Shown here piece by piece: positions 5,323 through 21,170 of a stretch of 26,907 nt of DNA. This DNA is from a virus. Location of the stretch: positions 1-26,907 of the IMG/VR virus record IMGVR_UViG_3300037346_000191. One strand, 5' to 3'. The notes under the pieces are model-generated. The model was not told where the DNA came from. It worked only from the letters and a program-made list of their open reading frames with translations, and ran no database searches. Each line of letters starts with the position of its first letter. Position 1 is the stretch's first letter. Both the position numbers and the translations under genes were made by a program.

Positions 5323-6005
5323 CTAGCCAATGGGGACGTCTAGGACGCCCCCGAACGGGTTGGCCGAGTCTGGGTTAAACTCGGTTGCTGGCATGTAGGG
5401 TTTAATTTCTAAACCTTCTTCACCTTTTGTATCTCTAACTCTGTTCTGTCCAAGCCCGTATAGGTAGTCGTACCCGTACATTGAGCCAAAAAGTTGCTCG
5501 CGTACACTAGAGTGCAGTTGAGCCCCTTCAGTTGAGCCGTAACGCATATCTTCGTCGAAGTAGTAGTGAATCACATCTAACATCCTGGAGGCTTCCATTT
5601 CTGTTAGATCCAATCCCTGTACTATCGCTTTCCCATTTACGTATGGCCAGAGGTTTATTGCCCAGTCGATCAGTCCTCTGGCAGCGGATTTGGGCGGTCA
5701 CTGTACTCACTGATGAGCCAAGCAACAATCTCGCTAAGAGTTTCGACCTGAACGATTTTCTCCTGGTGGTGTAGCAAGACCTCAAAGCGGTCTAAGCTCT
5801 CCTTCACTAGGACGTGACCAAAGAATTCAGTCATAATGATTGCGGAGTCGGCAGCATTGTCACTTGCGGACTTGGCAATTAGATCTAAAAGAACTCTTCC
5901 CTGTAGGTGCTTTACGCAGTGGAATTCTTCTTCATGTAGTTTAAAAGATAGAGGCTCTCTGTCTTCAAGAGCTTTACCTGCTCCAAAATCCTTGAATCTT
6001 GTCAT
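5323..6005 (-). CDS. Tail assembly chaperone, long form by -1 frameshift (227 aa)
   Basis: The second chaperone frame has no good independent start: its first start-like codon is a TTG at 5611-5613 without a clear ribosome site, yet the frame is open well upstream. Switching to the -1 frame at the CCCAAAT heptamer (5688-5694) joins the first 106 residues of the upstream chaperone to 121 residues beginning SAARGLIDWAINLWPYVNG. The C-terminal part, with LTEMEASRMLDVIHYYF, resembles the T part of G/GT-type chaperones. These proteins coat the tape measure and recruit tail-tube subunits. The frame runs to 19 bp before the tape measure gene. Confidence 0.87.
5646..5694 (-). promoter_or_regulatory. 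-1 frameshift signal of the tail chaperones
   Basis: The heptamer C CCA AAT (5688-5694) fits X XXY YYZ in the zero frame and permits re-pairing to CCC AAA. After a 5-nt spacer (5683-5687) an 8-bp perfect stem follows, GCCAGAGG (5675-5682) with CCTCTGGC (5646-5653), around a 21-nt loop. Heptamer, short spacer and stem form the canonical arrangement for -1 frameshifting. The -1 frame is open through the whole junction. Confidence 0.85.
5670..6005 (-). CDS. Tail assembly chaperone, short form (111 aa)
   Basis: This is the zero-frame product ending at a TGA at 5670-5672. The ATG at 6003-6005 has AGGAAAG about 9 nt upstream. The protein is small, helical and acidic at its C-terminus (ending RPNPLPED). 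It lies between the neck genes and the tape measure, as G-type tail chaperones do. It should be made in large excess over the frameshifted form. The family is poorly conserved in sequence, so the call rests on position, size and the overlapping frameshift arrangement. Confidence 0.85.
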   Translation of the reverse strand: MTRFKDFGAGKALEDREPLSFKLHEEEFHCVKHLQGRVLLDLIAKSASDNAADSAIIMTEFFGHVLVKESLDRFEVLLHHQEKIVQVETLSEIVAWLISEYSDRPNPLPED

Positions 6006-17724: not shown

Positions 17725-18516
17725 TCAAGAGGAATTGCCTTTTTTGGTAGCGTTTTCTAATTTCTTATCTCTAGCAGCTATGGCCTCGTCGTAGTCGTCA
17801 AAGACTTCTCCCTCTTTAGGATCGTACTTAGATCCAATGCGATCTTCATCATATGCCATAATCACTACATCTGGCTCACCGTTATTAAATTTACTGTAGG
17901 TCTCTTTATCCCAGCCGCCCGGTGCGAACTCATCGTTCCATCGCACTCTAGCTACCGGCTTGAATCCTGCCATAGCGTAGATTTCTGGAAGCACAGTATC
18001 ATATGCATCTAGCCTGTCACCGCCTCGGTCTACCATTTGGGACAGCATCGATGATACAGCTCCCTTGTGCGGAGAATCTCCATAAACAAAACCAGAGACA
18101 ATGTCACCATTGGACTTCAGTGCAATTCCTGCCGTACCGTCCTCCGTAGAGAATAGTCGCATGGCTTGGTATTCCTCAAGGTCATAGACATACACGGATG
18201 CTGCCCATTTATTATTCTGCTTCAGTAGCTCTATTGATGCACGAAAATCTTCAGCATCTTTTACTGAATCAAGCTCAAATAAGTCAGGAGTTGCAAGACC
18301 CCTGTCTCGGAGTTCTTGGGCGCGAGCTGTCTCGGGTAGCTTACTCTCTACAGAAAACCTAGTGCTTTCGCTTCCTGGATCTTCTCCTCGGTCCACTCCA
18401 CGTCCGGGAATGCTTTCGCCGCTCTGTCTCGATCTTCCTGAGTTACTGGTTGTTCCTGATCCTGATCCATCGTTGTCCTCTTCTGGGCTGTTGCCCCCTT
18501 GGTCAGGGGCTAGTCT
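17725..18516 (-). CDS. GNAT-like C-terminal extension reached by -1 frameshift (263 aa)
   Basis: This frame is open without a stop from the slippery heptamer at 18516-18522 to its TAA at 17725, adding 263 residues to the first 885 of the upstream protein (1148 in total). The first 45 residues are a Gly/Ser/Asp-rich linker. If made separately, translation could start at a GTG at 18394-18396 (223 aa), which has only a weak GGA upstream. Counting from that GTG, residues 44-183 resemble a GNAT acetyltransferase-like fold: AGIALKSNGDIVSGFVY, then GGDRLDAYDTVLPEIYAMAGFKPVAR and NNGEPDVVIMAYD. No classical acetyl-CoA loop is obvious. The domain is familiar from phage polyvalent head proteins; its activity is unknown. 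Confidence 0.72.
   Translation of the reverse strand, partial: RLAPDQGGNSPEEDNDGSGSGTTSNSGRSRQSGESIPGRGVDRGEDPGSESTRFSVESKLPETARAQELRDRGLATPDLFELDSVKDAEDFRASIELLKQNNKWAASVYVYDLEEYQAMRLFSTEDGTAGIALKSNGDIVSGFVYGDSPHKGAVSSMLSQMVDRGGDRLDAYDTVLPEIYAMAGFKPVARVRWNDEFAPGGWDKETYSKFNNGEPDVVIMAYDEDRIGSKYDPKEGEVFDDYDEAIAARDKKLENATKKGNSS
18348..18470 (-). CDS. Possible nested 40-codon ORF
   Basis: An ATG at 18468-18470, preceded by GAGG about 7 nt upstream, opens a 40-codon frame within the linker region of the frameshift extension but in the zero frame. The peptide is charged and plausibly helical (QEDRDRAAKAFPDVEWTEEK), ending EAKALGFL. It has more protein-like composition than the Gly/Ser-rich -1 frame over the same bases. 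It could be a small overlapping gene, or its presence may be coincidental. No family was recognised. Confidence 0.35.
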   Translation of the reverse strand: MDQDQEQPVTQEDRDRAAKAFPDVEWTEEKIQEAKALGFL

Positions 18517-18536
18517 TTTTTTGGTATCTCTTCTCC
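18493..18536 (-). promoter_or_regulatory. Candidate -1 frameshift signal (dnaX-like)
   Basis: Elements in order on the minus strand: GGAG (18533-18536), a 10-nt spacer, the heptamer A AAA AAA in the zero frame (18516-18522), a 5-nt spacer containing most of the zero-frame TAG, and a hairpin GCCCCT/GGGGGC (18505-18510 with 18493-18498) around a 6-nt loop. The bacterial dnaX site has the same three elements with the same upstream spacing. The -1 frame leads directly into the GNAT-like domain. Confidence 0.75.
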
Positions 18537-21170
18537 AAGAGCATAGAACACTACCTTAGTAGAACCATCAGCAGCTAATGCTGTAAAGGAAATTCCCTCT
18601 ACACCATCAGCATTCTTGGCAAATCTTGAAGAGACTATCTCGCCAATCATACCACCACCATTTAAGTCAGGCAACATCTCGCCAGGGTCTAGATCATCTA
18701 TGACGTCTGGTAACGGGGCATCGAGCTCTCCTGCAATAGTATCGATTGCCGCAGGGTTATTCACTATGCTATCCCCCGAGACTCCGTAAAGCCCCAGCTC
18801 CTGACGCCTATCACGCAGCGCCTTACCTCTAAGGTTAGGTTCGTATTCGGTTAGGGGCTCTGACTGGTTTTTTAGAATTCTAAGCTTTATGGAGTTAATG
18901 CGATAGGTGGTACCGGTCTCGTCTTTAACATAGACGTAGTCAGCGTAATCATAGCCCTCACCATTGGGGTTTACATTCAGACCGGGCGCATACCCTGTAA
19001 CCAAAAGGACCATTTTGTCTTGTCCGTTATTTATGTACTCTACAGTCTGACCAGGCTCGATCGGGGTTACTCTATTCTTTGAAGCGTAGGGGTTTGCACG
19101 CACTTCGGGATCGGTAACATCATATGTCTTGTTCCTAGCAACTCTAGACGCGTTAGTTATCATTGCGCCCATGCTTCGAGCGTTCTCGCCGGGGAAGCGG
19201 TTCTTGAACTCTAGTCTTAGCTGCTTCCTAGCTGCCTTATGCGATGCGGCATCCATAGGTAGACGACCAAAAACACCAAGAAGCCCGTGAGCTATGATAT
19301 CTCTAAGTTCAGGGTCACTGGGGTCATCCATAAAGTCAGGATAGGCTTCCCAGATGCTCAATACTTCTTGATTTTTAAGCGTCCCAGTTTGTTTATGGAA
19401 TATGTTTCCTCGGCCGTTACCGTAGAAAGTTGCAATTTCTGCTGGAGTAAACATCTTCTGCTTCTGCTTATACCACTCAGCACGATCTCTTAGGGACGCT
19501 TCACCAAACCCAGGTATGGCTTTGGGATTCTTCCCTAGCTTTAGGGGCTCAACACTTAACAGTCTCGCTAATAAGGCGTCTGAAGAGTTATCTTTCCTGA
19601 AGACTGATGTTATAGAGTGACGCTTATCATAGTGAACTAGGGTCTCAATTTCCCCAGTCTCTGGGTCAGTCCAGTTCATGGAGTAGACCAAGGCCTTGGA
19701 GCCGGTGTTAGAGGCTCTAAGTTCAAAAATCCTGCCGTCTTTGTCTATCCTTCGATCAAGAATTAACGCATCACCATCGGGGGTAAATTTAGCATTAGGG
19801 TAGGCTTCAGCTAAAGAGTTAAGTAGCTCAAATGGATCGGCAGCTTGCTTTCTCTTACCGTTGTTGTCGAAGTATTCCAAGATTCTACCCAACTTGGTTA
19901 TGAAGGCGGGTACTTTCTTTCTAACTGCCTCAGCTCGCTGGTCGTCAGTTAGAGGTTCGTGAACAATATCGCCACCATCATCAATCCTATCCGCAGGGAT
20001 GGCCTCTTGAACTGTTGGGGTTATCGAGTCAGCAATATCCGGAACTGATTCTGGCTCAGATGCGGCTTCAGGTGATTCTGCATCTATAGGGGTTACTGGA
20101 GCTTCGGCAGTGTTAGCTGGAGTGGATTCTGGTCTTGCTGGTCTGGCCGGCTTGACTGGCTTAGCTGAATCCTTATTTCCTTGTACAACTTTGTACTCTC
20201 CATTGGTCTTCACTGCAATTCTCTTTGGCCTTAGTTTTTTGCCCTGAGGATCATTTGGATCTACCTCGGCAAGAATCTTGCCGTCAGGTCCTTTAAGCGT
20301 CATTCTTCCAGTTTCTAGATCTATCGAGTCTATTTCATAGATCTTGCCGTCATCACCTAATATCCGGTCACCCTTGTCTAGGTTTAATGCCTTGGTTGCC
20401 TTGGTCTTTGGCGCGCCTTTAGGGCCGTCAATTAGCTCGTCTAAGGTAACTTGACGTGCCTCTGGGTTAAATGCATCTAGATACGCTTCATTAACCGAGT
20501 TTCTTCCGCTGACTGGTTCAGGTAGGTCAACAATATCCTTTTTAGGGGCTACCGTACTGGGCGTGGCTACGTCTGAAGCTTCAACTAATTTATTTACGTC
20601 TTCACCCTTTAGAGCCTTCTCGGCCAGAACTGGTGGAAGTTTTGCTAGAGGCTCCTTGTCGCGCTCTGCGCGGAAGTCCTTGTCTTCGTCGTCGGTTAGG
20701 CCACCGGTAGCCAGTTCAATGTCTAATTCATCTGCAGGCTGGACGTTCAGACTTGCCAGATCTTGAGGTTGCTCGGCTACTGACTTTGGCAGAGTGTGGG
20801 CTAGATCTGGATCTACGCCTCTTGACTTCAGGAAATCTTTGTCAATCTTTATCTTAGAGCTGACTTCTGCGTTTTTAGGAGTTACCTCTACTACGCTGTT
20901 CTCGGGAATGCCATACTGCTCGTAGCCCTTGCCTACCAGCATACGGATGTTGTTTACTTCATTCAGCTCGGTGGCGGTTCCACCAATTGCACTACCCTTT
21001 AGTTTTACTATACCCCTACCGTCACCAAGACTAAAAGCGGCTAGTAGTGCGGCTCCTGTAACTACCCAACGGCCTTTTTTATCTCTAGGCTGTTTCTTTA
21101 CACGCGCTTTACGTGCAGCACTAGAGTTACCGCCTGCTGCGATTAGGGCATTAAGAGTTAATTTGGACAT
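18510..21170 (-). CDS. Large head-module protein, zero-frame form (886 aa)
   Basis: The ATG is preceded by AAGGA. The N-terminus is basic (residues 17-35, with QPRDKKGRWV), followed by a hydrophobic stretch at 37-48. Residues 130-260 are charged low complexity. Residues 264-305 form a small KOW/SH3-like unit (LDKGDRILGDDGKIYEI). Residues 335-400 are Pro/Ala/Glu-rich linker. Residues 415-670 are the main globular part, including EYFDNNGKRKQAADPFELL and IPGFGEASLRDRAEWY. Residues 700-768 are another beta unit. The protein ends EEIPKKD at a TAG that directly follows a slippery A7 run, so a fraction of ribosomes may continue into the GNAT-like frame. The family is not firmly recognised; position suggests an internal virion or head-assembly polyprotein. 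Confidence 0.75.
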   Translation of the reverse strand: MSKLTLNALIAAGGNSSAARKARVKKQPRDKKGRWVVTGAALLAAFSLGDGRGIVKLKGSAIGGTATELNEVNNIRMLVGKGYEQYGIPENSVVEVTPKNAEVSSKIKIDKDFLKSRGVDPDLAHTLPKSVAEQPQDLASLNVQPADELDIELATGGLTDDEDKDFRAERDKEPLAKLPPVLAEKALKGEDVNKLVEASDVATPSTVAPKKDIVDLPEPVSGRNSVNEAYLDAFNPEARQVTLDELIDGPKGAPKTKATKALNLDKGDRILGDDGKIYEIDSIDLETGRMTLKGPDGKILAEVDPNDPQGKKLRPKRIAVKTNGEYKVVQGNKDSAKPVKPARPARPESTPANTAEAPVTPIDAESPEAASEPESVPDIADSITPTVQEAIPADRIDDGGDIVHEPLTDDQRAEAVRKKVPAFITKLGRILEYFDNNGKRKQAADPFELLNSLAEAYPNAKFTPDGDALILDRRIDKDGRIFELRASNTGSKALVYSMNWTDPETGEIETLVHYDKRHSITSVFRKDNSSDALLARLLSVEPLKLGKNPKAIPGFGEASLRDRAEWYKQKQKMFTPAEIATFYGNGRGNIFHKQTGTLKNQEVLSIWEAYPDFMDDPSDPELRDIIAHGLLGVFGRLPMDAASHKAARKQLRLEFKNRFPGENARSMGAMITNASRVARNKTYDVTDPEVRANPYASKNRVTPIEPGQTVEYINNGQDKMVLLVTGYAPGLNVNPNGEGYDYADYVYVKDETGTTYRINSIKLRILKNQSEPLTEYEPNLRGKALRDRRQELGLYGVSGDSIVNNPAAIDTIAGELDAPLPDVIDDLDPGEMLPDLNGGGMIGEIVSSRFAKNADGVEGISFTALAADGSTKVVFYALGEEIPKKD

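Follow-up and report, generated by a model that had tools for sequence, protein, structure and literature searches.

Organization of the locus

The viral DNA considered here (IMG/VR record IMGVR_UViG_3300037346_000191, 26,907 nucleotides, hereafter the window) is a 26.9-kb contig whose head module resembles those of large actinobacteriophages. On its minus strand an open reading frame (ORF) encoding a large portal-proximal head-module protein of 886 amino acids (18510–21170) ends at a candidate programmed −1 ribosomal frameshift site, beyond which a domain of GNAT type is encoded in the −1 frame. The codons closing the 886-residue ORF read ATA CCA AAA AAA GAC TAG, with the stop at 18512–18510, and include the slippery heptamer A AAA AAA (18516–18522), which satisfies the X XXY YYZ form in the zero frame. 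Exactly 10 nt 5' of the heptamer lies the internal Shine-Dalgarno (SD)-like element GGAG (18533–18536; anti-SD duplex energy −6.6 kcal/mol), and the putative stimulatory hairpin GCCCCU-GACCAA-GGGGGC (18493–18510) starts 5 nt past the heptamer, its first base being the last base of the TAG stop.

The −1 frame is free of stops from 33 nt 5' of the heptamer to 17728. The extension read after a slip (17725–18516) would begin R-L-A-P-D-Q and comprise 263 amino acids up to the TGA at 17727–17725, giving a predicted fusion of 885 + 263 = 1148 residues. It consists of a Gly/Ser-rich linker of poorly conserved sequence (18352–18513) and a GNAT-fold core, delimited at 17842–18291 by modelling and structure search as the region of structural match. 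A preliminary description of this DNA had proposed the same arrangement, and re-examination reproduced to the base the positions of GGAG, the heptamer, the hairpin and the end of the 886-residue protein; the open −1 frame, the length of the fusion and the Gly/Ser content of the linker were likewise recovered.

The RNA at the junction is more stable than its surroundings. The 50-nt stretch around the hairpin has a folding z of −2.3 against shuffles, and the 40 nt 3' of the heptamer are above 99% of 203 nearby 40-nt segments in stability. In a longer stretch an alternative fold of nearly equal stability is found, and an Rfam search of the window returned nothing at gathering scores.

Split homologues and conservation of the signal

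Twenty distinct contigs encode the family of the 886-residue protein and combine a slippery heptamer with a downstream hairpin and a −1 frame that stays open. The heptamer, either A AAA AAA or C CCA AAA, lies 0–3 nt 5' of the zero-frame stop, and the open −1 frame extends over 261–893 codons. The first set of homologues (contigs are designated L with a number) was obtained by searches with the 886-residue protein and its profile. In the window, L012/L002, L015 and L013/L014 a single codon separates A AAA AAA from the stop, while in L018/L004, L022, L025, L026, L030 and L100 C CCA AAA directly abuts TAA or TAG.

The second set was collected with a zincin domain alone, taken from the extensions of some homologues, as the query. 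This search added L108–L112, L114, L122, L124, L126 and L127, and all zincin ORFs not fused in frame were joined to a member of the family through a heptamer 0–3 nt before the stop; the family profile matches all 20 zero-frame ORFs at E ≤ 1e-96. This recovery is the strongest evidence for the junction, because the query held no sequence of the upstream 886-residue protein. The comparison of homologues suggested in the preliminary description thus bears the proposal out: heptamer, hairpin and open −1 frame were present in every split homologue, and a separate GNAT-like gene lacking a slippery run was not seen among the homologues found.

The hairpins differ in sequence between homologues, with stem pairs GCCCCC/GGGGGC, GGCCCU/GGGGCU, GGGCCG/CGGCCC, CCCCGA/UCGGGG, AGGGGCUG/CAGCCCCU, GGGCUGUAGC/GCUGCAGCCC and others. 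They start 3–8 nt past the heptamer in an automatic search, or 4–7 nt for the stems named here. When the 5' arm of one stem type is set against the 3' arm of another, no more than 44% of positions pair; judged by these comparisons, the hairpin sequences have diverged with pairing retained. Of the 11 loci scored for the upstream SD-like element, 8 have a good one.

The frequency of the arrangement by chance was estimated from all ORFs of at least 100 codons on both strands of 16 loci (n = 396), counting an in-frame X XXY YYZ no more than 12 nt from the stop with at least 100 open −1 codons. The pattern occurred 12 times, 11 of them at the head-protein junction and once elsewhere, which exceeds chance expectation; the 11 junction occurrences are not independent, since the loci are related. 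As a separate observation, another ORF of L015 (916–1224) has its stop 3 nt past AAAAAAG and 198 open −1 codons, which may be chance.

Coding selection across the site

Nucleotide differences between homologues fall mainly at codon position 3 of the zero frame before the site and at position 3 of the −1 frame after it. Counted by codon position, the differences between L111 and L112 are 25, 19 and 112 before the site and 7, 108 and 21 after it, and those between the window and L012 are 75, 63 and 173 before and 21, 105 and 31 after. The switch is only faintly visible between L122 and L127, a more divergent pair that was aligned without codon gaps. In the GNAT region the ratio of nonsynonymous to synonymous differences per site (pN/pS) is 0.10–0.15 in the −1 frame. 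By these measures both frames are under coding selection, which switches from one to the other at the site.

Translation of the extension from a start of its own is hard to accommodate in several contigs. No ATG, GTG or TTG occurs in L018, L030 and L100 for about 100 codons or more past the heptamer, and in L018 the alignable extension sequence starts before the first possible start codon. In the window the sole alternative start before the GNAT core is GTG 18396, 42 codons past the heptamer and preceded by a weak SD.

Domains of the extension

The GNAT-like domain, named in the preliminary description from its letters, is backed by a confident model (pLDDT, the predicted local distance difference test score, 89.6; pTM, the predicted template modelling score, 0.87) and by structural matches. 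The best Foldseek match is 2fiw (E 4.9e-5), and Z is about 10 to many GNAT acetyltransferases, including RimI and Naa enzymes. Catalysis is uncertain, because the stretch corresponding to the acetyl-CoA loop, read by eye as GDSPHKGAVSSML, is degenerate relative to the canonical Q/R-x-x-G-x-G/A. Relatives in sequence were found at the C-terminus of the minor capsid protein of Microbacterium phage Caron and in inner parts of giant phage proteins. This GNAT domain is also carried by a 9.4-kb gene of Limnohabitans phage DC33 (L041, PQ492659.1); this 39-kb record is filed under Inoviridae, a taxonomy that looks wrong.

The extensions of other homologues carry HExxH zincin-like domains, and L012 and L002 have an additional zincin 3' of the GNAT domain; in the window the GNAT domain is the only one recognised, beside uncharacterised domains. 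An assignment of the zincin extensions to the lethal-factor family was considered and rejected: the Pfam matches are below the curated cut-off and do not speak for toxicity, and such matches suggest only a zincin-type fold. By eye, a second, different GNAT-like sequence follows the zincin at the C-terminus of the L013/L014 extension, and the C-terminal 250 amino acids of the L022, L025, L026 and L030 extensions resemble ADP-ribosyltransferases (FRG ... YGxGIYGDGQY), although a Pfam search of the L022-type extensions did not confirm the latter call.

In some relatives the extension is fused in frame. L017, L031 and L019 encode proteins of 1211–1226 amino acids in which the same zincin (HExxH...E) follows the shared RGPK motif without a frame change, and none of the three has a slippery heptamer at this junction; in L128 and L134 the zincin is likewise in frame. 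These relatives show that proteins with the fused architecture really exist. In a tree of the N-terminal region both heptamer types and the in-frame forms are intermixed, a pattern suggesting that mutation or recombination has changed the junction repeatedly.

The extension has also moved as a unit. Between the window and L015 approximately 15–30 of every 60 nt differ up to the site, only 0–7 of 60 over the next 720 nt, after which the sequences diverge again; the identity is about 92% in the extension protein and about 76% in DNA outside it. L015 and L012 are 92–96% identical on both sides and only about 71% over the extension protein. From these profiles, the exchanged unit runs approximately from the frameshift signal to the end of the GNAT domain and is swapped between phages.

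A nested ORF of 40 codons (MDQDQEQPVTQEDRDRAAKAFPDVEWTEEKIQEAKALGFL; 18348–18470, minus strand) lies in the zero frame past the stop and overprints the −1 linker. It occurs in all four contigs with the GNAT cassette and has its own SD, with an energy similar to those of other genes of the window, and no homologues of it were found beyond this cassette. Between the window and L012 the pN/pS of this stretch is 0.28 in the frame of the nested ORF and 1.11 in the −1 frame, and the counts by codon position (8, 11 and 19) lean the same way without being significant alone (p 0.08). According to these data the nested ORF is probably translated, and its product might inhibit the enzyme domain or act as its chaperone.

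Proposed mechanism and alternative explanations

A programmed −1 ribosomal frameshift at the end of the 886-residue gene is very probably the explanation of this arrangement. Most ribosomes would terminate at TAG 18512–18510 and release the 886-residue protein, while a fraction would slip at A AAA AAA, with help from GGAG on its 5' side and the hairpin on its 3' side, and produce a minority form of 1148 residues with the Gly/Ser linker and the GNAT-like domain. Elsewhere in the family the same strategy probably operates with the other heptamer and with hairpins of differing sequence, the −1 extension serving as an exchangeable cassette that is GNAT-like, HExxH zincin-like or possibly ADP-ribosyltransferase-like.

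Several observations weigh against this explanation. The split homologues are all uncultured contigs, in which the frameshift product is predicted from sequence, and the virion location of the 886-residue protein is deduced from gene order alone. Many hairpins of group B have a common outer-stem sequence, which leaves the covariation resting on about 10 stem types; the automatic search settled on longer, alternative structures in L015, L018 and the window (where the listed hairpin and the longer one have similar energies), and compared with dinucleotide shuffles the hairpin regions are unexceptional in L013 and L015. L012, L002 and L030 have a weak SD-like element upstream. Finally, GTG 18396 could start a separate GNAT protein in the window, and its equivalent in L012/L002 has a stronger SD.

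This last point leads to the improbable alternative that the GNAT-like ORF is a separate gene, translated from GTG 18396 or coupled to the nested ORF, with the heptamer at its place by coincidence. The in-frame GTG ahead of the GNAT core, its good SD in L012/L002 and the apparent translation of the nested ORF are what such a gene would need, but the SD of the GTG is weak in the window and in L015, 20 homologues retain both heptamer and hairpin although several of them offer no usable start for more than 100 codons, and fusions in frame exist in relatives. Slippage of RNA polymerase on the A7 run, giving mixed transcripts, is still less probable: A7 is indeed a homopolymer run, but the homologues with C CCA AAA have only four A's, and the hairpin stays at ribosomal spacing. 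The heptamer C CCA AAA, being without a long A-run, therefore favours ribosomal over transcriptional slippage. The least credible explanation, to which we give almost no weight, is that the split arose as an indel in sequencing or assembly, or by decay of an in-frame fusion. Errors are common in homopolymers and in-frame relatives do exist, but the same structure recurs in many separate assemblies with two heptamers and the stop directly after, and purifying selection is seen in both frames.

The common 886-residue form may be a head-associated, portal-proximal component of the virion, and if the ribosomal frameshift takes place, the frameshifted form would load a few enzyme-bearing copies per head, their enzyme domain being delivered to the host or acting during assembly. 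Gene position and precedent make packaging and delivery of the extended form somewhat likely, and frameshifting would then set a fixed stoichiometry of the enzyme domain in the virion.

Genome context and cultured relatives

The order of genes in the window is terminase, portal, Dps-like, 286-residue, 886-residue, 1442-residue protease-like, major capsid protein-like and tail genes. Genes related to the 1442-residue protease-like one occur in Microbacterium phages Pumpernickel and Cece and in Actinomycetia phage DSL-LC01. Where the window has its 886-residue gene, between portal and protease, cultured relatives encode large single proteins: Pumpernickel gp82 (2235 amino acids, kinase-like C-terminus), Cece gp68, Sixama gp75 (annotated ADP-ribosyltransferase) and Mimi gp77 (annotated helicase). 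The homology of the family to the Microbacterium proteins covers the N-termini only, and Sixama and Mimi share the position only. Cultured relatives surface solely through distant homologues; the 886-residue protein had no match when GenBank phages were searched directly, by nucleotide comparison or tblastn, and relatives were not found among GTDB genome contigs.

No MuF domain was matched in the window protein in Pfam or PHROGs. Its model is of low confidence (mean pLDDT 61), and the fold matches were set aside as uninterpretable beyond a small Tudor/SH3-like barrel at residues 700–770, with Z below 7.

The Dps/ferritin-like gene (22558–22100, minus strand; PF00210, E 8.6e-11) is part of the head module and stands directly after the portal gene. 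A tail-chaperone-like ORF pair (6005–5670, continuing to 5323, minus strand) has a classical CCCAAAT at 5694–5688 and an open −1 frame, and is likely a second frameshift in this genome. The head element itself was considered as a tail assembly chaperone and rejected, since it sits between the portal and protease-like genes and not just upstream of the tape measure gene.

Relation to known systems

Frameshifts in phage capsid genes have been described for gene 10 of T3/T7 (10A/10B), Lactobacillus phage A2, Listeria phages A118 and A500 (−1) and PSA (+1) (PMC5009743). There too a minority of the product acquires a C-terminal domain through a shift near the end of a head gene; however, those are major coat proteins, several of them gaining Ig-like domains, whereas in the present family a large portal-proximal protein would gain GNAT-like or zincin-like domains. 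The novelty claimed in the preliminary description is therefore narrower than stated, since frameshifted head proteins were already known (PMC5009743), and what looks unreported is the appending of enzyme-type domains.

Polyvalent proteins are multidomain phage proteins, many of them thought to be packaged and injected, that combine RimI-like GNATs, zincin-like metallopeptidases, ADP-ribosyltransferases and kinases (Iyer et al. 2017, PMC5512222). They are described as single polypeptides, and the word frameshift is absent from the text of that paper, whereas in the family of the window a frameshift precedes the effector-type domains. MuF polymorphic toxins, like MuF-VIP2 proteins, are portal-adjacent minor capsid proteins with exchangeable C-terminal enzyme domains, published as in-frame fusions (PMC5576092, PMC7302621). 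The authors of PRFect mention MuF-like and VIP2 ADP-ribosyltransferase genes among unannotated frameshift predictions (PMC10885494). Packaging and injection also have their precedent in polyvalent and MuF proteins (PMC5512222, PMC5576092). No paper on a frameshift appending such effector domains was found in the open-access library searched; frameshifted capsid proteins have been described, as have polyvalent effectors, and their combination looks unreported.

Tail chaperones of the lambda gpG/gpGT type share a canonical −1 heptamer close to the stop but differ from the head element in gene, position and product. E. coli dnaX resembles the junction in its A-rich heptamer, preceded at about 10 nt by an SD and followed at about 5 nt by a hairpin. 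In dnaX the heptamer reads A AAA AAG and the shift yields a shorter product, whereas that of the phage head protein would yield a longer one. Retroviral Gag-Pol is alike in principle, a minority frameshifted fusion on a structural protein carrying enzymes into the particle; there is no homology to the phage family, and the likeness is one of analogy only. By this analogy, the chances are about even that tailed phages possess a Gag-Pol-like strategy in which the terminal frameshift site of a portal-proximal head protein doubles as an exchange point for effector cassettes, and any cassette gained in the −1 frame is produced and packaged at low, set copy number.

Biological significance

Gene callers would either annotate the extension as a separate, truncated gene or overlook where it starts, and effector domains behind frameshifts may therefore be overlooked in other phages. 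Pumpernickel gp82 and Cece gp68, distant in-frame proteins with N-terminal homology only, offer a tractable comparison in Microbacterium phages. If the interpretation is true, the family would give DNA phages a further class of programmed frameshift, conserved and lying beyond tail chaperones and major capsid proteins, and would illustrate how a virus can limit the number of enzyme domains that its particle carries.
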